64,000 nt of DNA from Candidatus Deferrimicrobiaceae bacterium (lineage in GTDB: Bacteria; Desulfobacterota; Deferrimicrobia; Deferrimicrobiales; Deferrimicrobiaceae), in contig DASXVV010000009.1 in assembly GCA_036504035.1 (NCBI GenBank), positions 62,001-126,000 on the forward strand. The letters run 5' to 3'. Positions within the stretch are counted from its first letter, which is position 1; each line of letters begins with the position of its first letter. A model generated the notes under the pieces. It saw only the letters and a list, made by a program, of their open reading frames with translations, ran no database searches and was not told where the DNA came from. The position numbers and the translations under genes were made by a program. Below, piece by piece: positions 14,315 to 28,154 of this stretch.

Positions 14315-14343
14315 TTAGCATGCCGTGCGGGTCCGGATATAAT
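14315..14343 (+). promoter_or_regulatory. Sigma-70-type promoter of the membrane Fe-S gene
   Basis: TTAGCA (14315-14320), a 17-nt spacer and a perfect TATAAT (14338-14343). The -10 overlaps an upstream in-frame ATG at 14342, so that ATG cannot be the translation start and the downstream ATG at 14384 is preferred. Confidence 0.6.
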
Positions 14344-14383
14344 GGCGATCGGTACGCCGGATTCCTCGAGAGGCGGTGCGGAC

Positions 14384-16438
14384 ATGACGGGAATCGGACG
14401 CGAGATTTTCTGGGGCGTATCCGCTTGGGCGCCAGGCGTCATGTATGCCCTGTTCGGGATCGTCCTGCTTCTGTCCGGATGGGGGATGACGCGGCGCGGC
14501 CGTGCCTGGCGCTCCGGGCGCCCCGAACGGGAGAACCGCTTCGACGACATTCCCGGAAGGCTGCTTTCGCTTTTCCGGGACGCCTTCTGCCAGGCGAGGA
14601 CGCTCGAGCGATTTCCCGGCGGCCTGTTTCATTTCCTGATCTACGCCGGCTTCCTGGTGTTGACGATCGCTACGCTCCTGGTTGCGGTCCAGCACGACCT
14701 GGGCTATCGGATCCTGGACGGGCCGTTCTATGTCGGGTTCAAGATCTTCGCGGACGGCTTCGGCCTTCTGATGCTGCTCGGCTGCGGCGCGGCGCTTTCC
14801 AGGCGCATTTTCGCACCATCTCCCGGACAGCTTCACGGAGTCGGCGAGTATGCTCCACTGGTCTTCCTGATCGCGGTCGGCGCCACAGGGTTTCTGGTCG
14901 AGGGACTCCGTCTTTCCGCGACGCAGCCGGCGTATGCCGGCGCATCCTTCGTTGCCTGCCGGGTCTCCCCTCTCCTGTCCTTTCTCGGCGACTTCGAAAT
15001 GCAGACTGCCGCGCACAATGCCGCCTGGTGGGCGCATCTCCTGCTGGCATTCGCCTTCCTGGCCTCTCTCCCGTTTTCGAAAATGACGCACGTGGCCACG
15101 GGCCCCTTTTCGATCTTCCTGCGCACCGCGCGTCCGGCCGGCGCACTCCAGTCCGTTCCGAAGATCGAGGAGGAAGAAAGGCCCGGCGTGCTGGCAGTCC
15201 GGGATTTCTCCTGGAAGCAGCTGCTTTCCGCCGATGCCTGCACGCGCTGCGGGCGTTGCCAGGACGAATGTCCGGCATTCGCCGCAGACATGCCCCTGTC
15301 CCCGCGCGATGTCGTGCTGAAGACCGCCGCCTCCCTGCACGGCGGCCGGTTCGCATCCCCGCTTCCCGAATCGGGTGTCCCCGTGTCCGGGGGCAACGCT
15401 TTCGCCCATGACGTGCTTACTCCCCCGACGATCTGGTCCTGCACCACCTGCCGTGCCTGCGTCCGCGCCTGCCCGGTCTCGATCGAGCATGTCGATATGA
15501 TCGTCGATGTCCGCCGCGGATTCGTCTCCGAATCGAAGATTCCCGACAGCGTCCGTGTCGCCCTGCGAAAGACAACGGACAGCGGAAACCCCTGGGGGTT
15601 GCCCCAGGCCGACCGTATGGCCTGGGCCGACGGGCTTGACGTGCGGCTGGCTTCCGACGGAAAACCGTTCGAATTCCTTTACTGGGTCGGATGCGCGGCG
15701 GCCTACGATCCGCGGAACAGGAAGGTTGCCCGCTCGATCGCCACCCTGCTGGCACGCGCAGGCGTCGATTTTGCCGTTCTCGGGACCGAAGAAACCTGTT
15801 GCGGCGAGGCAGCGCGACGCTTGGGTGATGAGGGGCTCTTCCAACTCGGGACCGTCGAGGCTGTCCGGGAGGTCTTCGCGAAGTACGGGGTTCGCAAGAT
15901 CGTTACCGGATGCCCCCATTGCTTCAACACGTTTCGTAACGAATACCCGGCGCTCGGCGTCCAGGTCGAGGTCGTCCACCATTCGCAGCTTCTCGCGACC
16001 CTCCTGGCATCGGGGAGACTCGCCCCCCGGCTCCCGCAGCCGGGCACGGTCGCGTTCCACGACAGCTGCTACCTCGGACGCTGCAACGGCCTGTTCGATG
16101 AACCGCGGACGTCGCTGGCCTCCATTCCAGGACTTTCGGTCGCCGAAACCGAAAAACGGCGGGAACGTTCCTTTTGCTGCGGGGCCGGCGGCGGGGCGAT
16201 GTGGCTCGACCTTCCGGGACGGCGAATCAATCACCTGAGATTCGACCAGCTTCGGGCGACCGGGGCCCGGGCATTCGCCACGGCCTGCCCCTACTGCCTG
16301 ACCATGCTGGAGGATGCGGTCAGTTTTCACGCCCTGGAGAAAACGTTCGATGTTCGGGACATTTCGGAATACCTGGCGGAATCCATGATCCCGGCATCGG
16401 AAAGAAACGGACTCGGAGCCATATTACAAATGCCGTAG
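14384..16438 (+). CDS. Membrane-bound CCG-domain Fe-S oxidoreductase with NarI-like cytochrome b domain
   Basis: Predicted membrane electron-transfer protein (684 residues) that passes electrons from soluble dehydrogenases or ETF to the quinone pool. The N-terminal ~230 residues form several hydrophobic helices resembling the nitrate reductase gamma (haem b) domain. Two [4Fe-4S] motifs follow, CTRCGRCQDEC near 285 and CTTCRACVRAC near 352. Then come two CCG domains: WVGCAAAY with ETCCGEAA and CPHC, then HDSCYLGRC with SFCCGAGGG and CPYC. This architecture is known for proteins called ETF:menaquinone oxidoreductases or HdrD-like proteins in deltaproteobacteria. Start 14384 is chosen because AGGCGG precedes it and a promoter covers the alternative ATG at 14342. 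Divergent from glcDF, its likely electron donors. Confidence 0.85.
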   Translation: MTGIGREIFWGVSAWAPGVMYALFGIVLLLSGWGMTRRGRAWRSGRPERENRFDDIPGRLLSLFRDAFCQARTLERFPGGLFHFLIYAGFLVLTIATLLVAVQHDLGYRILDGPFYVGFKIFADGFGLLMLLGCGAALSRRIFAPSPGQLHGVGEYAPLVFLIAVGATGFLVEGLRLSATQPAYAGASFVACRVSPLLSFLGDFEMQTAAHNAAWWAHLLLAFAFLASLPFSKMTHVATGPFSIFLRTARPAGALQSVPKIEEEERPGVLAVRDFSWKQLLSADACTRCGRCQDECPAFAADMPLSPRDVVLKTAASLHGGRFASPLPESGVPVSGGNAFAHDVLTPPTIWSCTTCRACVRACPVSIEHVDMIVDVRRGFVSESKIPDSVRVALRKTTDSGNPWGLPQADRMAWADGLDVRLASDGKPFEFLYWVGCAAAYDPRNRKVARSIATLLARAGVDFAVLGTEETCCGEAARRLGDEGLFQLGTVEAVREVFAKYGVRKIVTGCPHCFNTFRNEYPALGVQVEVVHHSQLLATLLASGRLAPRLPQPGTVAFHDSCYLGRCNGLFDEPRTSLASIPGLSVAETEKRRERSFCCGAGGGAMWLDLPGRRINHLRFDQLRATGARAFATACPYCLTMLEDAVSFHALEKTFDVRDISEYLAESMIPASERNGLGAILQMP

Positions 16439-16453
16439 CATTACCGCATGGCA

Positions 16454-16494
16454 TAGTTGTAATAATTGCGATAATGCTTGCATTATTACAACTA
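16454..16494. promoter_or_regulatory. 41-bp palindromic operator-like element
   Basis: TAGTTGTAATAAT (16454-16466) is perfectly inverted as ATTATTACAACTA (16482-16494) around a 15-nt spacer. The spacer itself contributes a smaller, overlapping inverted pair, ATAATGC and GCATTAT. It is far more A+T-rich than the flanking genes and lies immediately before an HTH-protein gene, so it is probably an operator, perhaps autoregulatory. The ATG at 16474 sits in its centre. Confidence 0.6.
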
Positions 16495-18078
16495 CTCACG
16501 CAACAATGGATCCAGGAACACCGATCGGGGGACCCATTGTCTGAGCATATAGAGTCTATCCTTTCGAATATCCTCGATAAAAAGATTCGAGAACTCGGGT
16601 TCGACTCGCTTCGGAAATTCCATCTTGCACACAAGGAATCCATCGGGGTCAGTTACGAGTTGCTCCGGCAAATCATGCGGTCGGGCCGGATCCCACGAAT
16701 CGAATCGCTCGTTCCCATCCTCCGGGCCGTCAACCTGTCCCAGGTCGCCACGGATTCCCTGCTCTCCCGACTCTACCCGCATTATCGCGGCACACGATCC
16801 TCCCTTTCGGCAGCGTCTACGGATTTAACGGAATTTTCCGGTTCCCTCTTGCCTGAAACTGCCGAATCCCCGGAATCCGACCTCCCTCGCAGGCTGTTCG
16901 ATGCGTTGCGCCGGATTCCCGTGCGGGGAAACGAAGATCTTTGGGAGATGACGACTCGCCTGGCCGAGATCGCCGAGCGCAAGGTTCGGGATCGGGCAAG
17001 GGGTCGCATCGACCAGCCCTCTCTTTTCGGGGAAGAGCCTGAATCGATCTACCAGTTCCTGGTTCGATGCGGGAAGGCCGTTCCCTTCATGTCCAGGGGT
17101 GAGGATTGCCACCTGGAATTCTGTCGGGAAATCGATTATGAAGATCGCTATCGAGGGGTGTTGCTCGGACAGGCGATCGGCGCCGCAATGGGACGCATTA
17201 CCCAAGGATTATCCGCCAAGGACATCGAGGGGCTTTACGGCCGCGTGCTCATGCCCCCCATCCCCACCGGGAATGCCCCCCCCTATAATCTCGCGATCGC
17301 CGAATATCTCGTGGAGGAGAAGCAATCGTCCCAGGAAGCGTACGCCACGGTCGTGGCCACAGAAATCCGCCTGCAGGAAGCGAGCGAGTGGGAGGCCGCG
17401 TATTCCGAAAACCTGTTGGACCGTCGCTATCCGTGGTTCGAATCGGGAGAGCCGTTCCCGGAAAGTGCGGCCGCCGCGCGTTGCATCCCGCTGGCCTTGC
17501 GACACGGAGGCGATTTCCGTCGGTTGAAGCTCGAATGCGGCCTGGGTGCCGCAACCACGCATCCCCACCCAGCTGCCATCGCCGGCGCAATCCTGCTGGC
17601 CGGATCGATTGCCCGCCTTCTCCACACCGTTCCCGGTTCCCTGGACGCCATCCCGTTTTTACGCACGGCCGCGCCGTTCATCGGCGGGATCGAGACCGAT
17701 AGGTCCGGTGGTCGCAACCGTACCCTTTCCACCTTCGTTCGTCGGGTCGGTACGGAACTTCCGGCCCTTTTATTGAGACGGGCGCCGATCGACGAGATCG
17801 CGAAATCGGTCGGTAACGGAGAACTCCCGACCGAAGGGATCCCGTTCGCGCTCGGCTGCGTCTTGTCGTATCCGACCGATTTTCGTGAGGGGGTTTTGGC
17901 GGCGGTCAACGCCGGCCAGGATGCGATCAGGACCGGTGCGATGGCGGGCGCGCTCGCCGGAGCGCTGCTTGGGGCGTCGTCGATCCCCGAGGGTTGGATT
18001 TCACGTCTTCCTGCCCGCCAGAGGCTCGAATCCGCCGCGGAAGGCCTGCTGCGCCTGGCACGCCAGGCCCGAAATTAG
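16474..18078 (+). CDS. HTH-ADP-ribosylglycohydrolase fusion with degenerate metal site
   Basis: A protein of up to 534 residues. The N-terminal ~110 residues look like a Cro/C1-type helix-turn-helix (around ELLRQIMRSGRIPRIESL). The C-terminal ~350 residues are an ADP-ribosylglycohydrolase (DraG/ADPRH) fold: YRGVLLGQAIGAAMG, then THPHPAAIAGAILLAGS, then AGALAGALLGASSIPEGW. Known active members bind two Mg ions through a (S/T)DDT motif and a DTDT motif. Here the first is replaced by APPYN and the second by DAIR (NAGQDAIRTG). It is therefore probably catalytically dead or altered, perhaps a ligand-sensing regulator. The start is uncertain: ATG 16474 lies inside a palindrome, and TTG 16537 (MSEHIESILS) after GGGGGA is an attractive alternative. 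It may be co-transcribed with the Fe-S protein 35 nt upstream. Confidence 0.75.
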   Translation: MLALLQLLTQQWIQEHRSGDPLSEHIESILSNILDKKIRELGFDSLRKFHLAHKESIGVSYELLRQIMRSGRIPRIESLVPILRAVNLSQVATDSLLSRLYPHYRGTRSSLSAASTDLTEFSGSLLPETAESPESDLPRRLFDALRRIPVRGNEDLWEMTTRLAEIAERKVRDRARGRIDQPSLFGEEPESIYQFLVRCGKAVPFMSRGEDCHLEFCREIDYEDRYRGVLLGQAIGAAMGRITQGLSAKDIEGLYGRVLMPPIPTGNAPPYNLAIAEYLVEEKQSSQEAYATVVATEIRLQEASEWEAAYSENLLDRRYPWFESGEPFPESAAAARCIPLALRHGGDFRRLKLECGLGAATTHPHPAAIAGAILLAGSIARLLHTVPGSLDAIPFLRTAAPFIGGIETDRSGGRNRTLSTFVRRVGTELPALLLRRAPIDEIAKSVGNGELPTEGIPFALGCVLSYPTDFREGVLAAVNAGQDAIRTGAMAGALAGALLGASSIPEGWISRLPARQRLESAAEGLLRLARQARN

Positions 18079-18474: not shown

Positions 18475-18576
18475 ACAAATTGCGGTTATTAGAAGGCAAG
18501 GTCCCGCTCAACTCATAATGCCGTCGAGCATTACATAAACCTATCTTACAAGCCCCACACCCAAAGCAACAGAATT

Positions 18577-18936
18577 TTACAATGACTTATTAACTTTGTG
18601 CGCCACAAACTTATTCCTGTACTCCTTTGCTGACCTAATATTTGAATACACTTCTGCATCATTGCCCAGCATAAATATATCCCTATGCACCCCCATGTCG
18701 GACAGCTCCAAATCTCCTAAATTTTCAATTAACTCAATACCTTTGGCAGTATTGTCAGCGCGCAATTCCATTAAAGCCTTCGTATGTACTGCGAGTAGAC
18801 TTGATGACAATCCTACTAATTCAATTTGAGATGAGTCACTATGAATATAAAGGGTCCTGCCCCCCCACCTATAACCGACACCTACCGAAACCGCAATAAT
18901 AGCCACACAACATAATCTTACATATATTTTGTTCAA
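18577..18936 (-). CDS. Small membrane-anchored protein after RHS tip C; candidate immunity protein
   Basis: A protein of 119 residues beginning MNKIYVRLCCVAIIAVSVGV, one hydrophobic segment (about 4-21) serving as signal anchor or signal peptide. About 95 polar residues without a recognised domain follow. TTG at 18936 is chosen because CGAGGTG lies 8 nt upstream; a longer frame opens at 18978 without a binding site. It directly follows orphan tip C, the position immunity genes occupy in polymorphic-toxin loci. It is A+T-rich compared with the chromosome around it. Function is inferred from position only. Confidence 0.55.
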   Translation of the reverse strand: MNKIYVRLCCVAIIAVSVGVGYRWGGRTLYIHSDSSQIELVGLSSSLLAVHTKALMELRADNTAKGIELIENLGDLELSDMGVHRDIFMLGNDAEVYSNIRSAKEYRNKFVAHKVNKSL

Positions 18937-19013
18937 AGTTATGCACCTCGCCTCGCGAAAAACTCCTCTTAACAACAAAACAATTCACCAACAACAATCC
19001 GCACCGCAAATTA

Positions 19014-19430
19014 CTATTTACACGGAAATCTCCTCTTTATTAAAAGTCGGTAGGCCTCTCCTGGATGATCATGCGCCCATTGTGCATCTATCATGTTATC
19101 GACATTGTCGTTAGCAAGTTGTTTCAAATTATAACTCTTAATAAATACATCATATTCCCCTTTAGCAATGTCTGGACTTGCTAATGAGTAGGCTGTTCCA
19201 ACAACAGTACCGGCAAACGATCCCGCAAATCCACTTTTAAATGTAGTGCCTATCAGGTTTTCCCCCACGCTTTTAACGAAATTGCCAACAGACGTAAGTC
19301 CTTTTCCAACGTCACGACCAAAATCACGAAATGAATATAGGCCATTTTGATCTATATAGTTTATAGGGTCGTTCCCAACGTAAACGTAGAGATTCAGCCC
19401 GCCCTTGTGAAAAATCGGGTCCTTTGCGGC
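19014..19430 (-). CDS. Orphan RHS C-terminal tip, cassette C
   Basis: Open frame of 138 residues that starts inside the RHS core (AAKDPIFHKGGLNLY, then YVGNDPINYIDQNG) and has no normal start codon. An in-frame TAA lies just upstream, so it is a displaced tip that needs recombination with the main rhs gene to be expressed. The tip proper (about residues 31-138) begins LYSFRDFGRDVGKG. Its central part is Gly/Ala/Ser-rich and hydrophobic (FAGSFAGTVVGTAYSLAS), and a polar segment with WAHDHPGEAYRLL follows. I see no nuclease or deaminase motif. It lies 5 nt after the preceding membrane-protein gene and is followed by the candidate immunity gene at 18577. Confidence 0.7.
   Translation of the reverse strand, partial: AAKDPIFHKGGLNLYVYVGNDPINYIDQNGLYSFRDFGRDVGKGLTSVGNFVKSVGENLIGTTFKSGFAGSFAGTVVGTAYSLASPDIAKGEYDVFIKSYNLKQLANDNVDNMIDAQWAHDHPGEAYRLLIKRRFPCK
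19341..19430 (-). repeat. RHS-core recombination repeat, copy C
   Basis: Begins GCCGCAAAGGACCCGAT, identical to the same site in the main rhs gene, and encodes AAKDPIFHKGGLNLY through DQNG. Homology to the other copies ends at the tip boundary. Confidence 0.8.
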
Positions 19431-19435
19431 AAGTA

Positions 19436-19762
19436 TCAGCGTTTATTATCCAAATTCTTCCTCAAGTTTCTTTTATTGATGATTTTAAGCATCTCAGCCC
19501 AAATTATTACTAAAAAACCCACTATAGCAATTGGTATTCCCAACAAATAAACGCATAATTTGTTAATTCTAAAAAGGGAAAATAAAACCTGCAACGATAT
19601 AAAAGTTGTTCCAACCAGAATCAACAAAAAGCCTTTCCAGAAATAGGCATAGTATGGCCTGTGTCTGTTTTTATAATTATACACAACCAGTATCGCTACC
19701 AATAATTCCCGTGCCACAACGATGCTATTTATATTATCGAAGTATATATCATGGAATGTCAT
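19436..19762 (-). CDS. Small multi-spanning membrane protein after RHS tip B; candidate immunity protein
   Basis: A protein of 108 residues, strongly hydrophobic, with about three membrane segments (around 15-30, 43-65 and 70-92) and a basic C-terminal tail (KIINKRNLRKNLDNKR). Start ATG at 19762 lies 12 nt after the tip B stop codon and has only a weak GAGA upstream. It has no recognised domain and a strongly A+T-rich composition. Its position right behind a tip matches immunity genes of RHS systems, and a membrane location would suit a toxin acting in the membrane. That role is inferred. Confidence 0.6.
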   Translation of the reverse strand: MTFHDIYFDNINSIVVARELLVAILVVYNYKNRHRPYYAYFWKGFLLILVGTTFISLQVLFSLFRINKLCVYLLGIPIAIVGFLVIIWAEMLKIINKRNLRKNLDNKR

Positions 19763-19774
19763 AAGCTATTCTCA

Positions 19775-20074
19775 CTACCTTACGGGTGGCATACGGCCTG
19801 GAAGCGTCCTGGGTGGGGGTGGAAACCTCCCAACAGGGGGGGCGTTTCTAGGATTAAATGGTTCGATTGGTTCTCCTTCAATATGAGGCTGCTGTTCTTC
19901 TCCATGCCTAGCTGATTCCCATGCCTCGTATATTAATGCCGCTATTACAGCAGCCGCTATTATAACCTGTATGGTACATTCACCCGTAGGGTCTTTGTAG
20001 TTTATTGGGTCGTTAGCGACGTACTGGTAAAGATTCAACCCACCCCGGTGGAAGATGGGGTCCTTTGCGGCCCA
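19775..20074 (-). CDS. Orphan RHS C-terminal tip, cassette B
   Basis: Open frame of 99 residues (W, then AAKDPIFHRGGLNLY, YVANDPINYKDPTG) directly abutting the stop codon of the preceding CPBP-protease gene, with no start codon of its own. The tip after the core has a short hydrophobic segment (VIIAAAVIAALIYEAW) and a proline-rich tail ending PPPPRTLPGRMPPVR. This is the same layout as the tip of the intact main protein (hydrophobic stretch then Pro/Gly-rich tail, GEC at the junction), so the two may belong to one toxin class. The canonical DPxG core ending is kept. Followed by the membrane protein at 19436. Confidence 0.72.
   Translation of the reverse strand, partial: WAAKDPIFHRGGLNLYQYVANDPINYKDPTGECTIQVIIAAAVIAALIYEAWESARHGEEQQPHIEGEPIEPFNPRNAPPVGRFPPPPRTLPGRMPPVR
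19982..20071 (-). repeat. RHS-core recombination repeat, copy B
   Basis: Begins GCCGCAAAGGACCCCAT; identity with the main gene extends upstream to include GATGG, giving GATGGGCCGCAAAGGACCC in both. Encodes AAKDPIFHRGGLNLY through DPTG. Confidence 0.82.
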
Positions 20075-20728
20075 TCACCCAAACACCGAATTGGTTATAT
20101 AGAACGTAATATTCATAACCGCATGAGAAACTATACTTGCCCCGAGACATCCTGAGTGTTCATAAATAATAGTCAAGGCAACAGAATATATAATGGCGGC
20201 TGGACTCAAATGAATAAGCCCGTAACATAAAGAAACAACAGCAATAGAAACAAGAAAACCGTATCTATTCTTTATAATATTAAACGCATATCCCCGATAA
20301 AACACTTCTTCAATAATTGGGAAAATAATACAGATAAGCAATATGTATGGAATGTAAAATATTTGTTTGTTATCTAAACCAATAAACCCAGTAGGTTTTC
20401 CCCATTCCCCCCCACGAATAATGGCGCCTAAAGGCAAATTCAAAAAGGATAACAATAGCCCACCCGCCAATCCGTACAGAAGCATTTTTAATTTCTTTTC
20501 CTTAGTAAATCCATATTCTTCAGGTTTAATTATTTTATTACTGGAAAGATATACTATCGAAAGCGCGAGTGAGCCTGCCAGCAAATAATATTCTTTCAAT
20601 ACTTTTGGCACATATAAATTAAGGATTTCCAATCCAAGCCTATACAGAAAGTGAAATATAGCAAACGAGAACACCAGTACGAAAAATGATATTATTAATT
20701 CGCGTAAACCAAGTCTATCGCCACTCAC
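20075..20728 (-). CDS. CPBP-family (CAAX-type) intramembrane protease; candidate immunity protein of cassette A
   Basis: Integral membrane protein of 217 residues with about six hydrophobic segments. It carries all three motifs of the CPBP/Abi glutamic intramembrane protease family: EEVFYRGYAF, GLIHLS and SHAVMN. Relatives include eukaryotic CAAX prenyl endopeptidases and, in Gram-positive bacteria, Abi proteins giving self-immunity to bacteriocins. It starts at GTG 20728 after GAGGG and stops directly against cassette B. Because it follows orphan tip A, I infer it protects against tip A or otherwise modifies it. Strongly A+T-rich, so acquired with the cassette. Confidence 0.85.
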   Translation of the reverse strand: MSGDRLGLRELIISFFVLVFSFAIFHFLYRLGLEILNLYVPKVLKEYYLLAGSLALSIVYLSSNKIIKPEEYGFTKEKKLKMLLYGLAGGLLLSFLNLPLGAIIRGGEWGKPTGFIGLDNKQIFYIPYILLICIIFPIIEEVFYRGYAFNIIKNRYGFLVSIAVVSLCYGLIHLSPAAIIYSVALTIIYEHSGCLGASIVSHAVMNITFYITNSVFG

Positions 20729-20780
20729 AATTAGCCCTCAATAAAATGACATTCGAAACATCTGTGTATAATCAGTTATT

Positions 20781-21200
20781 CTATTTTTTCCTTTTTCTGT
20801 TTACCTTACAGGCCTGGATCAGTGTGTCTTCAAGATCACTCAGGGCATCCATTGTTGCGCCAAACAGATTAACTCCAACCTGAACGTTATTCGTAGGATC
20901 CGGAGGCCCAGTGATAAGCCCTTGAACGACGTCATAAACATATTTTGCACCCACAGCAAGTTCTGGAGCATATGCATAAACATAGGGCGTAATTATTTCA
21001 GCCGCCGCGGCAACAGCCGATCCCGCACCGATTGTGCCCACGCTTATTTGTGCTGCGACTCTTTGTTGTGGAGTAACAGGAGAACTATTCGGTATCTGAA
21101 TTACTGCTAAGCCATAATGATCGATAAGGTTAACCGGATCATTCCCAACGTACTGGTAAAGATTCAACCCTCCCCTGTGAAAAATCGGGTCCTTTGCGGC
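20781..21200 (-). CDS. Orphan RHS C-terminal tip, cassette A
   Basis: Open frame of 139 residues beginning AAKDPIFHRGGLNLY, YVGNDPVNLIDHYG, preceded immediately by an in-frame TGA and lacking a start codon. The tip begins LAVIQIPNSSPVTPQQRVAA. A long Ala/Gly/Val-rich stretch (GTIGAGSAVAAAAEIITPY) and a second amphipathic part follow, ending in the basic KVNRKRKK. The glycine/alanine-rich hydrophobic core resembles pore-forming or membrane-inserting segments more than an enzyme; no catalytic motif is evident. Followed by the CPBP protease gene 52 nt downstream. Confidence 0.7.
   Translation of the reverse strand, partial: AAKDPIFHRGGLNLYQYVGNDPVNLIDHYGLAVIQIPNSSPVTPQQRVAAQISVGTIGAGSAVAAAAEIITPYVYAYAPELAVGAKYVYDVVQGLITGPPDPTNNVQVGVNLFGATMDALSDLEDTLIQACKVNRKRKK
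21111..21200 (-). repeat. RHS-core recombination repeat, copy A
   Basis: Begins GCCGCAAAGGACCCGAT and encodes AAKDPIFHRGGLNLY through DHYG. A TGA codon lies directly upstream (21201-21203). Confidence 0.82.
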
Positions 21201-21244
21201 TCAAACCACAAAACATTGGCCATGGTCGTACCTGTACATCGCAT

Positions 21245-21697
21245 TTATTGGCCGAGTAAGCCCTTGATAATCCTTACACTTTCATCATAATCCTTTGCAG
21301 GGGTCATTATTCTCATCTCAACACCTGGAAGAAATTGTAACATTTGCGCAGAATTTCGGTCTAGAACAACACTATCCACATTATTCTGCTTAAGTGCATC
21401 TACTATCGCTTTGACTTTAATACTGTCCTTTAGCGATAGAACCGTTACATATTCATTTTTGTTTGCACCGTGCTTTATACGTTCATGGAATATCACGGCA
21501 TCCGTATATTTATATACTAATTCTTTTTTATGGTTTCCTTTTGATAAAATTTCCCACAATAAAAAGAATATCAAGCACGAAGTAATAATAGCCCACCCGA
21601 CAGATGAGTGATATTTTGCTTCGAAATACAATCTAATTGTTAGATAAAAACTAGCAACTACGATAGCAACGGATAGAACTATTGATTTATCTTTCAT
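21245..21697 (-). CDS. Membrane protein after the main RHS tip; candidate immunity protein (DUF2007-like C-terminus)
   Basis: A protein of 150 residues with two N-terminal membrane segments (about 5-22 and 30-48) and a cytosolic C-terminal domain. The end (DSVVLDRNSAQMLQFLPGVE, then MRIMTPAKDYDESVRIIKGLL) resembles the small DUF2007/putative signal-transducing fold; this is my pattern match only. ATG at 21697 has AGGTG upstream, located inside the last codons of rhs, and the gene starts 7 nt after the rhs stop. That tight coupling is what is expected for a toxin-immunity pair. Clearly lower in G+C than rhs. Confidence 0.65.
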   Translation of the reverse strand: MKDKSIVLSVAIVVASFYLTIRLYFEAKYHSSVGWAIITSCLIFFLLWEILSKGNHKKELVYKYTDAVIFHERIKHGANKNEYVTVLSLKDSIKVKAIVDALKQNNVDSVVLDRNSAQMLQFLPGVEMRIMTPAKDYDESVRIIKGLLGQ

Positions 21698-21704
21698 TTA
21701 GCAT

Positions 21705-24700
21705 TCACCTCCCCGGCATCCCGGGAGGAACACCTGGAGGAGGCCTGCTTATGGGAGGCCTATCCCCCCCTGGAGGAAATTTTGGAGGTGACAGTGGACC
21801 GGGGGAACCTGGTCGTGTAGTTCCTGGAGGAGAACCTGGGGGCAATCTCGGAACTTGAGGATCGTGTAACCAGAATGGGGCAATCTCTTGGGCAGTAATT
21901 ATTGGGATAAGAATTCTTGCAACCCAAATTACCCAAATCGGACATTCACCAGAAATATCTGTATAGTTCACGGGATCATTCCAAACGTAACTATACAGGT
22001 TCAACCCTCCCTCGTGGAATATCGGGTCCTTTGCGGCCCATCTTCCTGACTCTGGTTCGTAGTCCCTAAATCCGAATCGGACCATGGTTGAGACGTTATC
22101 AACCAGCCCGCCGGCAAATCCAATAGGTAAATTAAATCCTGAACCCATCTCATTTATCTTGATCCCCCAGGCGTCGTACTCCATCGACTTTCGTATGGCT
22201 CCAGAAGTATCTATAACCATCCTCGGCGATCCCAAACAGTCGGATGCGACATAGAACCTTTCGCCTCCTCGTTCAATGGCAAACAACGCCCCAAATACAT
22301 CGTAATAGTAGGTTGAAAACGTATTGTCCGTCGCCCGGGAAGCTGTTACCTGGAACGGTTGACTCGGATTCCCGTACAAGTACTGGGTGGTCTCATTGCC
22401 AACCGTACTTGCGACGCGCCGATTCATCCCGTCATACGCGTAACGGATCAACGTCAAGCCGGTCGTATTGTCGATGACTTCAAGCAGTTCCCCGCGGCTA
22501 CTGTATCGATAATTCCGCATACCTCTCCGGCCCAGGAAACCATCAACATCGAACACGGCCGACCCCGTCTCGCGGTCCTGGTCATCGTAGGCAACCGGCC
22601 CGCGAACCCCGATTGGACTGTTCGCATGGGTCCGATTCCCATTCAGGTCGTAAACGTATTTTTCATAGAGCGTCGAACCATCCCGGATGACGTTGTCCAA
22701 TTGACCATCGAGATCGTAGGAATACTTGAAAATAATTGGAGCAACCCCGAGTTTCCGCTCGGTTTTCCTGCTGATTCTTCCAGGAAGGTCCCGCTCCATG
22801 GTTTCTTCGTAGAAAATCGTAGCATGGTTATCCGAAACGGTTTTCCGGTTCATTCGGCCGACGTTGTCATATCCGTACGAAACAATCAGCCATCCAGGAA
22901 GGCAATTGATTGGCTGTTCCGTTTGATCCAATCCGCATTCCCGGGTTGCAAGGTCGGACACATTGTCGGGTGCCCCACCTGGTCCCCCGCGTGAAATCGT
23001 GAACGGCCCGGTTCCGGTCAGCAATCCGTCGGGGTCCATAGAAAGCAGATTCCAGACGTTGTCCAGGGCGATTCTCGTGACGAAGAAGTTGTTGTCATAT
23101 GCGTAGCGGTATTCCCCAACCGATGCACCGGAGGCCGAGGCCCGCCTGACGAGGAAGGCATCGTATGCAAAAGCATTTGATTGGGTGCCGCCCATATCGC
23201 TTCTGGAAACCGAGTCGACCCGGTCGTCGTTGTCCAGATACCCAAAGGAAATCGACGCCTCAGGGTAGGAAACGGAAGACAATCTGCCCTTCGTCGGTTC
23301 GTACTCCGCCGTGATCGTCCGGCCGCCCGGCAGGCGCGTGGACTCCCATTCCCTGTCGAGCGAATATCCGTGCGTGTAGTACGGATTGCCAGGCGGGGAA
23401 TAACTGTTATCCATATTGACCGGGGAATAGTCGCTGATGTGCGACATTAATTTCGGCATGACGATCTTCTTCCTGTTGCCCTCGCCGTCGTACTCGAATC
23501 CGTAAATTCGCGTCGATGGCAATTTCACCGATTTCACCCGATCGACATCGTCGTACCCGTATTCGATCACACGCTGATACGGATCGGTTACGGTCCAAAG
23601 CCGGTTCAGGTTGTCGTAGGCGTAAACCCATGCGTTGATAAATTCATTATCGTAGCCGGTTTTCCAAAGACGCCCGTGATTGTCGTAGGCGAGCCAGGTC
23701 GAAAGAAGTTCCGGAAATGTCAGGTCCCCCTTGTAGGAGGAGACTCTTCCTCTCGCGTCCAGCCAGGTTGCGGACTGGCGCTGCGCAGGGGAAACCGTGA
23801 GAATCTGGTGCGTCGCTTTGTCGTATGATTTTGAATACGTGCGATTGTTGATCTTGGTCGTTTGCAGAGTGCTCCGCACGCTCCAAGGGTCTCCCAGGAG
23901 ATCAAGCGAGACGGATTTGTTGGTGCTCGAGACGTAGCTCAACCCTTCAGGCGTCCCGATCGTCGTCTTGCCGATAAAGGGGGACTGCATACCGAACCGC
24001 GGATCGGGCAATTCTTTCACCGTGGTAAAGGTACCATCCGGCAGCGACGCATTTCGTGTTCCGTAAGGAAAGACTTCCTGACGGCGGACCGAACCCGAGG
24101 GGTATTTGCCCACGACGATCGAATTTCGCGTCGAAAGTTGTTCCACTGTGTGATGGGTGACACGCCCCCGGGCGGTCGACTTGGTGATGTCCAGGAATGA
24201 ACTGTTGTCAGTGGTCGTCAAGGTTCGTTCCAGATTCAGAAACCCGCCGGCCGGATCAGTATCCCGCTTTATGCGGCCTTGATCATCATAGATGAATTCG
24301 TGCGGGAAGCCCCGGAAGTCCCAATACTTTCGAAGCAACCCATTCGGCTCATAGGTCATCGAGACATTGTCGCCGCCAGGTCGAACCAGGGATTGGAGGT
24401 ATCCATTCATCAAGGGACCAAAGACCGTCCTCTGCCCGCCTGTGCCGCTGATCACCCGCGGGATTCCACCCGATGGGCGCTCGATCTGAACCGAGTTGTT
24501 GTCGGAGTCCCGAATCGAAGCAAGGTATCCATCCTGATCGTAATCAAATTCGATCAAGAGATCACCTGTCAGGGCATTCCGGGTTTGCAAATGGCGACCC
24601 GCCCCGCTGAAGACGTGGACTAAATCTCCGTCGTCCGAACCAATGGCAACCTCACCATCCCCCAATCCGGGGAAACGGGCGCTCACCTTCCGGATGCGCC

Positions 24701-27700
24701 GGTCAGATCCATCGGCCATGTAACCGCTTCCATCCGGACCGAATCCGATCGACGATATCTCCTGGAACGTGGCGCCGGTTGCGGGCCCCCCGTCTCCTCC
24801 ATATCCGAACAAGCCATTTCCGACAAACAGGTTGATGGTCCCGTCGGGTCGGATGACGCGAACCCGGCCGTACCAAGCATCGCTGAGATAGATCGTGTCG
24901 CCTTTCCCCTTCCCCATCGCCAGACCTTCCACGGCTCCGATATACGCATTCAGGGCTGGGCCACCATCCCCGTTTCCCGGATAACTTCCCGGGGCGCCAC
25001 CGGCGATTGTGCGGATCAAACCATTCTCGACGGATCGTACGGTACGCTTAATTACATCGTAAAAATAGACCGCACCGGACATTCCGACCGCCAACCCTTG
25101 GGGCGACAGATAAGCATTGATCGCCGGGATATTCTCCCCGTAAGTTCCTCCTCCGCCCGCCCAACGCCGGACGATGTTGTCGGCTCCCATCCTGAAGACC
25201 ACATTCCCGTCGATGAAATAGAGAGAGTCATCGGGGCCGATCGCCAGATAGGTCGGTGCAAATAATGGGAACTGAGTCCCGTTGACGTTGTTCCGGTAGG
25301 AACCGTACAACTGCGCTCCGGTTCCCACTACCGTCGAGATGATGCCGCTCGGATCGATTTTTCGAATTCGATAATCGGAATAGTCGGCCAGATAGATGCT
25401 GTCATCACTTGCGATCGCGATGTCTCTCACCCACCGAACAGATCCCTGGCTTGCCGGGCCTCCGTCTCCCTCGGAATCGCCCGGTGGCTGGTAGCGAATC
25501 AGGGTGGAGGCGATGCCATCCTTGTCGATTTTTCTGACCTTCGTCCCTTCCGAAAAATAGACATTCCCGTCACTATCGGCGGCAACCCCCGATGCCCCAC
25601 CGATTCTTCCGCTGGCACCCGGCATCCCATCTTCCAGCCATGGCGTATTGTAGCTAGTCCCCGCGCCGGCAATCGTCGTGACGATGTTTTCCATTCCTCC
25701 GATCGCGGCGAGCGTGGCACCATCGCCCAGATACATAGCTCGGTTGGACGGGTCGAAGACATGGTGGGGGCTTAGAGTCCATCCCCCAAGATTTACCGCT
25801 CGCGCATCGAACGTTCCGACAGTCGTTTCCCAATTGGATTCCAGGATCACGGTCCTGTCCGGGGCAAGAACTAGATTGACGTTGTCAGTCGAGGAGTTCG
25901 CAAACGCAAGTTCCTGTTCCATGGGAATCTGGTAATACCCCGGAAAGACGTATCCGATCCGGACCAGCGCCTTCTGGGGCGTGTTCATCAATACGTTGTC
26001 GAATCGCAGGCCGTCCCAATCGAACTCATATTTCAGGTTGGGAGTCGGAGGGTCATAGTTCAGATGGATATGGCGCCCCGCGATGATAATATCCACAACA
26101 GCCCGGATCAAATCCGGATGGATGGATTCACCTGTGATCGGGATGCTCAGCTTGCTGGCATCCTTCCGGCCGGGGACCCGATTGCTGCGGTAGTTCAGGG
26201 AAAAAGGCGTGCCGATAATTGGAATGCTCTCCCCAAGGATCTGTTGCTGGCACTCGATGGTAGACCGCCCCGAGTCGGTTGTGGATGTGCAAGGGGGTGG
26301 TTCCGGTCCGTCGGGCGTCGTTGGAACCCCCGTCGATGGTTCGGCCCCCGTCGGAGGCCCTATGGTGAAGTTCATGTCGACGGTCGAGAAATGGGGAATC
26401 GGAGCCCGCCAAAGGGAACTGCCGGCGGAATATAGCGTTGCCAACTGCCGCCGTTCGTCGTCCGTGATACCGAGCCATTCCAACCGGGCATTGTTGTCCG
26501 GCGTTCCGCTGCCGGTCGAATCGATCACGGCAATGCCTCCGTTAACGCTTAATATCCGGATGACCCTGCCATTTTTCGCCGGAACCCACTGCTTCGCCTT
26601 CTTGTTATAGAACCCGACGGGAACCGGGGTGCCGACCGGAAATCCCAGGAAATTTTCCACATAATGAAAGAGCGGACGATCTAATCGCACACTCTCCGCC
26701 CCGGCTGCGAGTGCCTCGTCCGCGGTCAACTCGGCACAGTAGGTGTACCCGGTTGTGGGCGGAAGCGGGGCGGGCATGGCTTTCGGGCCGTTGGGACCTA
26801 CCGTGTATTCGGTTGCCCGAATGCTTAGGGACGGCAGCGACCGGGAACTGCCATCCGGGAAAACCATTTCCGCCGTCGTGCCGGCCACGACGATAAGTGT
26901 CGCTTGCCGGGTCCCGGCATCATCGGTCACGACGTTACCTCGAGCAACTTGAACCGGTTGCGATGGCGCAATGAGGTCGACGGTCGTCACTGCATTGTCG
27001 AGCGGGATCATCGCGACGTCGGGAACGACCCCGTACTCCTGCCACATCGTGTCCGCATGGCGCTTGGCCGGCAAATAACCCGTCCGGGAATAACTCAGCA
27101 CAGTCCGGCCCCCGCCGTTGACAATCATATCGAAGATCCCGTCGAGACGGCTGACGGTCTGTCCAAGCTCTGGATGCGAATCGACCGTGATGGTGACTCC
27201 GGAAAGTGGAAGTCCGTCGCGCGTGAGAACTTTTCCACGAATCACAGCAGCCCGCCGGGTCTCGATCGTTCCCGGGCTCACCCCGGTCTGAATCGGGTTG
27301 TCTCCCGAATAGATGTATCGGGTCGAGGAAGCGATGTTGGTGGCAATCGTCGGTTCCGGTGGTGGCGCTATCGTCGCCGGATCCGGCGGGATCGTTATTG
27401 ACTCCGGGCCTTGGGACAGCACATACGAGATCTGAGCCCCTTGCAGCAGTTGGGTCCCCGGGGTCGGATCCTGGGTAATGATCCGGCCCGATGCCACCCG
27501 CCCGGAATATGCGTTCGTTACCGTTCCCGACGATAGCTGCAGGGCGACGAGCGCGCTTTGTGCCTCGGGCTGAGTCATCCCGAGAATCACGGGTGCGCTG
27601 ATCATCGCGGGTCCTGTCGACACGGTCAGATCGACCGCCGCCCCTTCCGGCAAGACCGTGCCTGCGACCGGGAATTGGCCGATGACGTTCCCTGGGGGTA

Positions 27701-28154
27701 CGGAAGCGCTGCTTGCCTGCGTGATGGTCCCGGTAACGAGGCCTGCACCGGCAATCCCGGACTGGGCTACCGATTGAGACATCCCGGTCACGCTCGGAAC
27801 CGTCGTCGCCGGGATGTAGGCCATCAGGTTGATCGTCGACGGAGCGCTATTGAGCGCGTTGTCATTGACCACCAAGGAGACCGTGTAGCTTCCCGCGACA
27901 TCCAGCGTGATCATCGCGTGGGTTGAAGTGGCATTGCTCACGGTTGCGGCGCTTCCTGCGGGTGCCGATACGACGCTCCACTGATAGGTCAGCGGATCCC
28001 CGTTGATGTCATAGCTGCCCGAGCCATCCAGGGAGACAATCGTGGATCTTGGCACATCGATCGAGGCCGCAGTCGCGACAGCGACCGGCATGGTATTGAC
28101 CGCTGTTGCGATCACCGTATCGGGCGGGCTGTCCTGGACGCCGTCGTTGACCAC
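21705..28154 (-). CDS. Giant secreted RHS/YD-repeat protein, C-terminal 2149 residues (frameshifted from its N-terminus)
   Basis: Main part of a teneurin-like polymorphic toxin. In order: a PKD domain (about 22-110), two PASTA-like repeats (about 117-245), a carboxypeptidase-regulatory-like domain (about 300-390), and an RHS entry segment near 635 (IIGTPFSLNYRSNR). NHL-type repeats follow (about 820-1160, with repeated GVAADSDGNVYFSE-like blades), then a long YD-repeat shell (about 1185-2000). The RHS core ends AAKDPIFHEGGLNLY, SYVWNDPVNYTDISG (2039-2068), which in characterised proteins includes the Asp protease motif that releases the tip. The ~80-residue tip has a hydrophobic stretch (WVARILIPIITAQEIAPFWL) and then a Pro/Gly-rich tail. 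The true start is upstream in another frame, in the reading frame that begins at 29611. Confidence 0.85.
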   Translation of the reverse strand: MVNDGVQDSPPDTVIATAVNTMPVAVATAASIDVPRSTIVSLDGSGSYDINGDPLTYQWSVVSAPAGSAATVSNATSTHAMITLDVAGSYTVSLVVNDNALNSAPSTINLMAYIPATTVPSVTGMSQSVAQSGIAGAGLVTGTITQASSASVPPGNVIGQFPVAGTVLPEGAAVDLTVSTGPAMISAPVILGMTQPEAQSALVALQLSSGTVTNAYSGRVASGRIITQDPTPGTQLLQGAQISYVLSQGPESITIPPDPATIAPPPEPTIATNIASSTRYIYSGDNPIQTGVSPGTIETRRAAVIRGKVLTRDGLPLSGVTITVDSHPELGQTVSRLDGIFDMIVNGGGRTVLSYSRTGYLPAKRHADTMWQEYGVVPDVAMIPLDNAVTTVDLIAPSQPVQVARGNVVTDDAGTRQATLIVVAGTTAEMVFPDGSSRSLPSLSIRATEYTVGPNGPKAMPAPLPPTTGYTYCAELTADEALAAGAESVRLDRPLFHYVENFLGFPVGTPVPVGFYNKKAKQWVPAKNGRVIRILSVNGGIAVIDSTGSGTPDNNARLEWLGITDDERRQLATLYSAGSSLWRAPIPHFSTVDMNFTIGPPTGAEPSTGVPTTPDGPEPPPCTSTTDSGRSTIECQQQILGESIPIIGTPFSLNYRSNRVPGRKDASKLSIPITGESIHPDLIRAVVDIIIAGRHIHLNYDPPTPNLKYEFDWDGLRFDNVLMNTPQKALVRIGYVFPGYYQIPMEQELAFANSSTDNVNLVLAPDRTVILESNWETTVGTFDARAVNLGGWTLSPHHVFDPSNRAMYLGDGATLAAIGGMENIVTTIAGAGTSYNTPWLEDGMPGASGRIGGASGVAADSDGNVYFSEGTKVRKIDKDGIASTLIRYQPPGDSEGDGGPASQGSVRWVRDIAIASDDSIYLADYSDYRIRKIDPSGIISTVVGTGAQLYGSYRNNVNGTQFPLFAPTYLAIGPDDSLYFIDGNVVFRMGADNIVRRWAGGGGTYGENIPAINAYLSPQGLAVGMSGAVYFYDVIKRTVRSVENGLIRTIAGGAPGSYPGNGDGGPALNAYIGAVEGLAMGKGKGDTIYLSDAWYGRVRVIRPDGTINLFVGNGLFGYGGDGGPATGATFQEISSIGFGPDGSGYMADGSDRRIRKVSARFPGLGDGEVAIGSDDGDLVHVFSGAGRHLQTRNALTGDLLIEFDYDQDGYLASIRDSDNNSVQIERPSGGIPRVISGTGGQRTVFGPLMNGYLQSLVRPGGDNVSMTYEPNGLLRKYWDFRGFPHEFIYDDQGRIKRDTDPAGGFLNLERTLTTTDNSSFLDITKSTARGRVTHHTVEQLSTRNSIVVGKYPSGSVRRQEVFPYGTRNASLPDGTFTTVKELPDPRFGMQSPFIGKTTIGTPEGLSYVSSTNKSVSLDLLGDPWSVRSTLQTTKINNRTYSKSYDKATHQILTVSPAQRQSATWLDARGRVSSYKGDLTFPELLSTWLAYDNHGRLWKTGYDNEFINAWVYAYDNLNRLWTVTDPYQRVIEYGYDDVDRVKSVKLPSTRIYGFEYDGEGNRKKIVMPKLMSHISDYSPVNMDNSYSPPGNPYYTHGYSLDREWESTRLPGGRTITAEYEPTKGRLSSVSYPEASISFGYLDNDDRVDSVSRSDMGGTQSNAFAYDAFLVRRASASGASVGEYRYAYDNNFFVTRIALDNVWNLLSMDPDGLLTGTGPFTISRGGPGGAPDNVSDLATRECGLDQTEQPINCLPGWLIVSYGYDNVGRMNRKTVSDNHATIFYEETMERDLPGRISRKTERKLGVAPIIFKYSYDLDGQLDNVIRDGSTLYEKYVYDLNGNRTHANSPIGVRGPVAYDDQDRETGSAVFDVDGFLGRRGMRNYRYSSRGELLEVIDNTTGLTLIRYAYDGMNRRVASTVGNETTQYLYGNPSQPFQVTASRATDNTFSTYYYDVFGALFAIERGGERFYVASDCLGSPRMVIDTSGAIRKSMEYDAWGIKINEMGSGFNLPIGFAGGLVDNVSTMVRFGFRDYEPESGRWAAKDPIFHEGGLNLYSYVWNDPVNYTDISGECPIWVIWVARILIPIITAQEIAPFWLHDPQVPRLPPGSPPGTTRPGSPGPLSPPKFPPGGDRPPISRPPPGVPPGMPGR
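21948..22037 (-). repeat. RHS-core recombination repeat, copy in the main gene
   Basis: Encodes AAKDPIFHEGGLNLY through DISG at the core-tip junction. It begins GCCGCAAAGGACCCGAT, shared with the three orphan cassettes downstream; homologous recombination here would exchange tips. Confidence 0.85.

Follow-up and report, generated by a model that had tools for sequence, protein, structure and literature searches.

The window (the whole 64-kb stretch of DNA that was analyzed) contains, directly downstream of an EtfD homolog, a gene that probably encodes a one-component transcription regulator controlling its own expression, with an ADP-ribosylglycohydrolase (ARH) domain that would no longer catalyze and would act instead as a sensing or docking module. 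According to the mechanism that we propose, the N-terminal XRE-type HTH would bind the arrayed TTGT/ACAA half-sites that overlie its promoter and, once bound, would control its own gene, most likely by repression, while the ARH module, devoid of metal sites, would set DNA binding by a signal tied to acyl-CoA oxidation through EtfD and to the transfer of electrons to menaquinone. That the protein itself reads the array is suggested by its own HTH and by the restriction of the sites to one gene, and that a signal passes through the ARH domain is suggested by the continued selection on a dead enzyme. A more specific version, in which a dead ARH/DraG effector senses a metabolite or partner of the EtfD pathway through a phased multi-half-site operator wrapping its own promoter, is offered tentatively and could easily turn out to be wrong. 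The coordinates are collected in Table 1.

Table 1. Features of the HTH-pseudo-ARH gene and its surroundings (positions in the window; residues in the 534-aa frame)
Feature	Position	Strand	Basis or remark
EtfD homolog, membrane Fe-S/CCG protein, ETF:menaquinone oxidoreductase type	14342..16438	+	phmmer, Pfam, synteny
Candidate operator, half-sites ACAA 16426-16429, TTGT 16457-16460 and ACAA 16488-16491 in 31-bp steps	16426..16491	+	phased-chain search
Palindrome TAGTTGTAATAAT-N15-ATTATTACAACTA, perfect, 13-bp arms	16454..16494	.	contains ATG 16474
Coding sequence, likely start TTG 16537, 513 aa	16537..18078	+	same-genus ATG, homology onset
Divergent XRE/Cro-CI-type HTH, aa 22-106	16537..16791	+	profile comparison; recognition-helix region SYELLRQ
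Conserved middle region GNEDxWE...QPxLFGxEPExIYxFxVR...SxGE	16888..17139	+	ortholog alignment; no known family
Pseudo-ADP-ribosylglycohydrolase domain, aa 223-530	17140..18063	+	Pfam, AF2, Foldseek, family alignment
Lost metal site 1, GNAP in place of TDDT	17269..17280	+	family alignment; orthologs vary freely
Degenerate metal site 2, D-A-I-R in place of D-x-D-T	17920..17931	+	family alignment

The gene is present as a single copy in its own genome. The first-pass annotation had described an open reading frame at 16474-18078; the frame, which lies on the forward strand and has 534 aa counted from the ATG at 16474, and its motifs are as described, but translation probably starts at the TTG at 16537. 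The upstream ATG is an unlikely start because it lies inside a perfect palindrome, because homology among the relatives begins at about residue 22 of the 534-aa frame, and because two relatives from the same genus have an ATG at the position of the TTG. A Shine-Dalgarno-like GGGGGA (16527-16532) precedes the TTG.

PF03747 was the sole Pfam model to score above its cut-off in the product of 16474-18078, matching aa 228 to 506 with an E value of 3.4e-30 and 106.1 bits against a family cut-off of 26.2. The motifs YRGVLLGQAIGAAMG, THPHPAAIAGA, AGALAGALLG, APPYN, and QDAIR were all found in the translation. The ARH fold had been recognized at first pass, with structure prediction proposed as a check, and the AF2 model of the ARH part (10-residue block means of 57 to 97, the majority above 80) bore it out. 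The best PDB matches of this model in Foldseek were ARH enzymes, namely, MJ1187 (1t5j; E=4.8e-11, TM 0.81 by target length), DraG (TM 0.74 to 0.78), and ARH3 (TM 0.72 to 0.79), and the same three proteins were the closest solved chains by sequence search. As a matter of fold family, the protein thus is a member of the ADP-ribosylglycohydrolase family PF03747, by both its sequence and its modeled structure. The middle region, which lies between the HTH and this domain, belongs to the best-conserved stretches of the family and matched no Pfam family; its PDB matches consisted of designed repeat proteins only, which we judged to be chance.

The active site of the domain is broken, and the damage is inherited. 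At the positions of ARH3 residues E41, T76, D77, D78, D314, D316, and T317 (list taken from PMC9738213), the family alignment places Q244, G266, N267, A268, D483, I485, and R486 of the window protein. The catalytic E41 is replaced by Gln in 20 of the 21 orthologs, the TDD motif is absent from all 21 and its three columns are free to vary, and the D316 position holds E, R, I, or D, with T317 lost. Within the GNGxxMR motif, the GNG loop is lost across the family; the TH motif is retained. Thus, the binuclear metal site (TDD...DxDT) and the catalytic Glu are gone, and the D314 position alone stays D or E (20/21 orthologs). Canonical ARHs from the same phylum retain every metal and catalytic residue on the list. 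The earlier claim of a broken metal centre therefore holds for the whole family, and its reading of the second site as D-A-I-R agrees with the alignment of D483, I485, and R486 and with the loss of D316 and T317 in the orthologs; the first site, which had been read as APPYN, is indeed lost, but it is GNAP that occupies the TDDT columns. Given that the same residue losses are found in all 21 orthologs, the domain is, on alignment, an inherited pseudoenzyme, and dN/dS values of 0.05 to 0.26 in the seven pairs computed indicate that it remains under purifying selection. The corresponding range for the middle region was 0.04 to 0.60, and one HTH value was disregarded, as only 6 codons lay behind it. 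The same genome also encodes a distant DraG-like ARH paralog (L002; G000:C6:202783-202968, minus strand) with intact TDDT and DADT motifs, so that it has a conventional ARH in addition to the pseudoenzyme.

These substitutions also bear on whether the protein could still be an enzyme, with E330, D483, and position 485 rebuilding a metal site and an ADP-ribose-like bond being hydrolyzed. The E330 position, which is Gly in canonical ARHs, is E or D in 20 of 21 orthologs, and this conservation, together with that at the D314 position, the E or D found at position 485 in 14 of 21 orthologs, and the retained TH, would fit such a site. However, the remaining seven have R or I at position 485 (the window protein has I), the columns of T76, D77, and D78 show no constraint, the catalytic Glu has become Gln, and neither T317 nor the GNG loop survives, so that we consider residual catalysis extremely improbable. 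The first-pass annotation had proposed a regulator rather than an enzyme, sensing ADP-ribose or NAD-related ligands. The pseudoenzyme, the HTH, the gene-specific array, and the pairing with EtfD all speak for the regulator, whereas the ligand found no support: ADP-ribose or NAD is possible but not favored, because the TH motif alone is kept; both metal sites have gone, as have the catalytic Glu and the GNG loop, and residues with which ARHs contact ADP-ribose are among the losses.

The N-terminal DNA-binding region, also part of the earlier description, was upheld as an XRE-type HTH by profile comparison, although no Pfam HTH model scored above its cut-off in any member scanned, including the window protein and the L032 domain, and DNA binding is predicted from the sequence. 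The family profile found two 406-aa proteins of another family (L044 and L045; E values of about 5e-5), which combine an HTH_3-like domain with Peptidase_S24 and thus are CI/LexA-like repressors. In hhalign, the N-terminal domain aligned with the XRE-S24 protein at P=6e-6 and with a set of genuine HTH_3 domains at P=2e-4 (2.5e-5 once L044 was added to the query); the HTH_3 alignment was in register (GVSYELLRQIMRSGRIPRIESL with GVSRVYLSQIENSKREPSLTFL), and the controls were negative (0.39 for a TetR set and 0.52 for the middle region). Comparison of the HTH profile with PDB sequences gave nothing convincing, and L044 had no matches in phages. AF2 modeling of the HTH alone from a two-sequence alignment gave five helices with a mean pLDDT of 72 and no PDB matches. 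By way of this bridge to a related XRE-S24 repressor, we take the N terminus to be a divergent XRE HTH.

The redox gene that had been noticed next to the open reading frame encodes the EtfD homolog, which matched the EtfD structure 9ojn_A (PMC13083937) in phmmer with E=1.4e-96, carries the Pfam domains CCG, Fer4, and Nitrate_red_gam, and lies directly upstream on the same strand in every locus examined. It is mostly divergent from a gene for a GlcD-like FAD oxidase, beyond which genes for an Fe-S CCG protein and a biotin-dependent carboxylase are found. Downstream, in most loci, there are convergent genes for an acyl-CoA dehydrogenase, a TetR protein with a YsiA-like C-terminal region, and an IclR regulator. 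In the window, a Rhs/YD-repeat-like gene (21705-28154, 2,149 aa) and short open reading frames, spanning 18500-28154 on the minus strand, take the place of the relatives' acyl-CoA dehydrogenase and TetR genes. The local acyl-CoA dehydrogenase ortholog seems to have been lost from this genome, in which the best match elsewhere is just 36% identical.

Of the 24 genomes of the bacterial family, 21 have an ortholog, one of them (L032) in a Deltaproteobacteria MAG, and the two sister-family genomes have none. When 297 genomes drawn from the phylum were searched, the sole matches beyond the family were two weak ones to the HTH only, and viral contigs and plasmids yielded no relatives of the full protein. 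The sister-family locus shows the same genes and gene order, with the ends of the acyl-CoA dehydrogenase and EtfD genes 69 bp apart and nothing between them; most simply, then, the gene would have been acquired by the ancestor of a single family and then kept in place. Three family genomes have no copy: G003 and G018, in which an EtfD ortholog is likewise missing, and G014, in which the contig ends inside EtfD. The joint absence of both genes from G003 and G018 is suggestive and, as the assemblies of all three genomes are incomplete, is to be read as no stronger than that.

TTGT/ACAA half-sites are present in the DNA between the upstream gene and the HTH-pseudo-ARH gene. Their spacings cluster at 10, 31, and 51 bp on opposite strands and at 20, 41, and 61 bp on the same strand, which places them on one face of the helix. 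Pairs at 10 bp exceeded dinucleotide shuffles in every ortholog (a fraction of 0 to 0.027 of 1,000 shuffles reached the observed value) but the window copy, which has none and carries two 31-bp steps instead. The pattern TTGT-N6-ACAA-N6-TTGT had 14 exact matches in 19 genomes (about 45 Mb), all of them just before the HTH-pseudo-ARH gene, and a reversed control pattern had none in the same genomes. With one mismatch allowed, more clusters appeared before this gene, often as two triads 51 bp apart, and the matches elsewhere in the genomes (about 11) did not exceed the control (29). The form found in the window, ACAA-N27-TTGT-N27-ACAA, occurs once in its own genome; as this pattern was chosen after the site had been seen, its uniqueness shows merely that it is not common. 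Chains of at least three phased half-sites were confined to this array in the 64-kb window and in the ortholog neighborhoods examined, with the exception of one intragenic chain in L049; L054 has no chain.

The best promoter-like match in the majority of orthologs is TTGACA-N16-TACAAT or a near variant, with a half-site covering the -10 element, and this overlap favors repression; among the three genomes from the genus of the window, such promoters are weaker or absent. A conserved site array at the gene's own promoter is one mark of the class of autoregulated one-component regulators, and it is present here. In L009 and L010 (also in L011), a hairpin that, with its T-run, resembles a terminator (e.g., AAGGGGAGTTGCC-TCTC-GGCAACTCCCCTTTTTT) lies between EtfD and the HTH-pseudo-ARH gene, which in these loci probably depends on its own promoter. 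The array itself is a ready candidate operator for bench testing.

The array could instead be read by another regulator, e.g., the product of the nearby TetR or IclR gene, with an N-terminal domain that does not bind DNA. The presence of these two genes near most loci and the distant homology of the HTH are consistent with such a reader. However, the sites are absent before the TetR and IclR genes and elsewhere in the locus, the array persists in the window genome, where the local acyl-CoA dehydrogenase and TetR genes are gone from the gene order, and the recognition-helix residues S60, Y61, E62, R65, and Q66 are invariant in 19 of 19 aligned orthologs, which together make a different reader very unlikely.

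A point that is odd for a regulator is that no targets beyond its own promoter were found in the one-mismatch genome searches, and that neither the 64-kb window nor the flanks of the gene in the relatives (about 9 kb each way) contained another operator that looked real. For this reason, the main rival to autoregulated sensing is a docking or assembly factor with self-limited expression, in which the HTH only holds its own level constant and the pseudo-ARH domain and middle region bind a putative partner, such as EtfD, ETF, or a PII-like protein. The sole detectable operator being the gene's own would agree with this, as would the tie to EtfD and the matches to ARH-fold proteins in other roles, namely, 3o5t (the DraG-GlnZ complex) and 8xqw_G (one chain of the Ycf2-FtsHi motor) in Foldseek and mt-SAF23 in the sequence search. 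Weak targets elsewhere in the genome may nevertheless exist, and we regard a pure docking role as rather unlikely. If the autoregulated sensor is the true reading, a regulator would be linked to EtfD, which joins beta-oxidation to menaquinone.

Searches of the open-licence literature found no regulator with an ARH effector domain and no ARH-HTH fusion, and the parts consulted of a survey of viral NAD/ADP-ribose systems, which name Nudix and WYL sensors fused to an HTH, describe no such fusion (PMC9503650). The PF03747 enzymes MJ1187, DraG, and ARH3 share the fold, the sequence family, and the TH motif with the window protein, but their TDDT and DxDT metal sites are present, as are the catalytic Glu and the GNG loop, and an N-terminal HTH is found in none of them. 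Animals have ARH pseudoenzymes, and ARH2/ADPRHL1 is likewise a catalytically dead ARH fold under selection; however, it is a muscle protein without an HTH or operator, and its motifs are changed only in part (PMC9738213). The XRE-S24 repressors L044 and L045 have a homologous N-terminal HTH, whereas their effector is an S24 peptidase-like domain rather than an ARH domain. The closest system in working principle, by analogy, is NrtR, the Nudix-related regulator of NAD synthesis, an auto-repressor that combines a degenerate Nudix domain with an HTH (PMC6800001). In both, an HTH is joined to a hydrolase domain that has lost catalysis, and a site lies at the gene's own promoter; NrtR differs in its Nudix fold, its ADP-ribose ligand, and its NAD biosynthesis targets, while the window protein has the ARH fold and does not class as a Nudix protein. 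If our reading is true, the ARH fold would join the enzyme domains, such as Nudix in NrtR, that have been turned into sensors of transcription factors.
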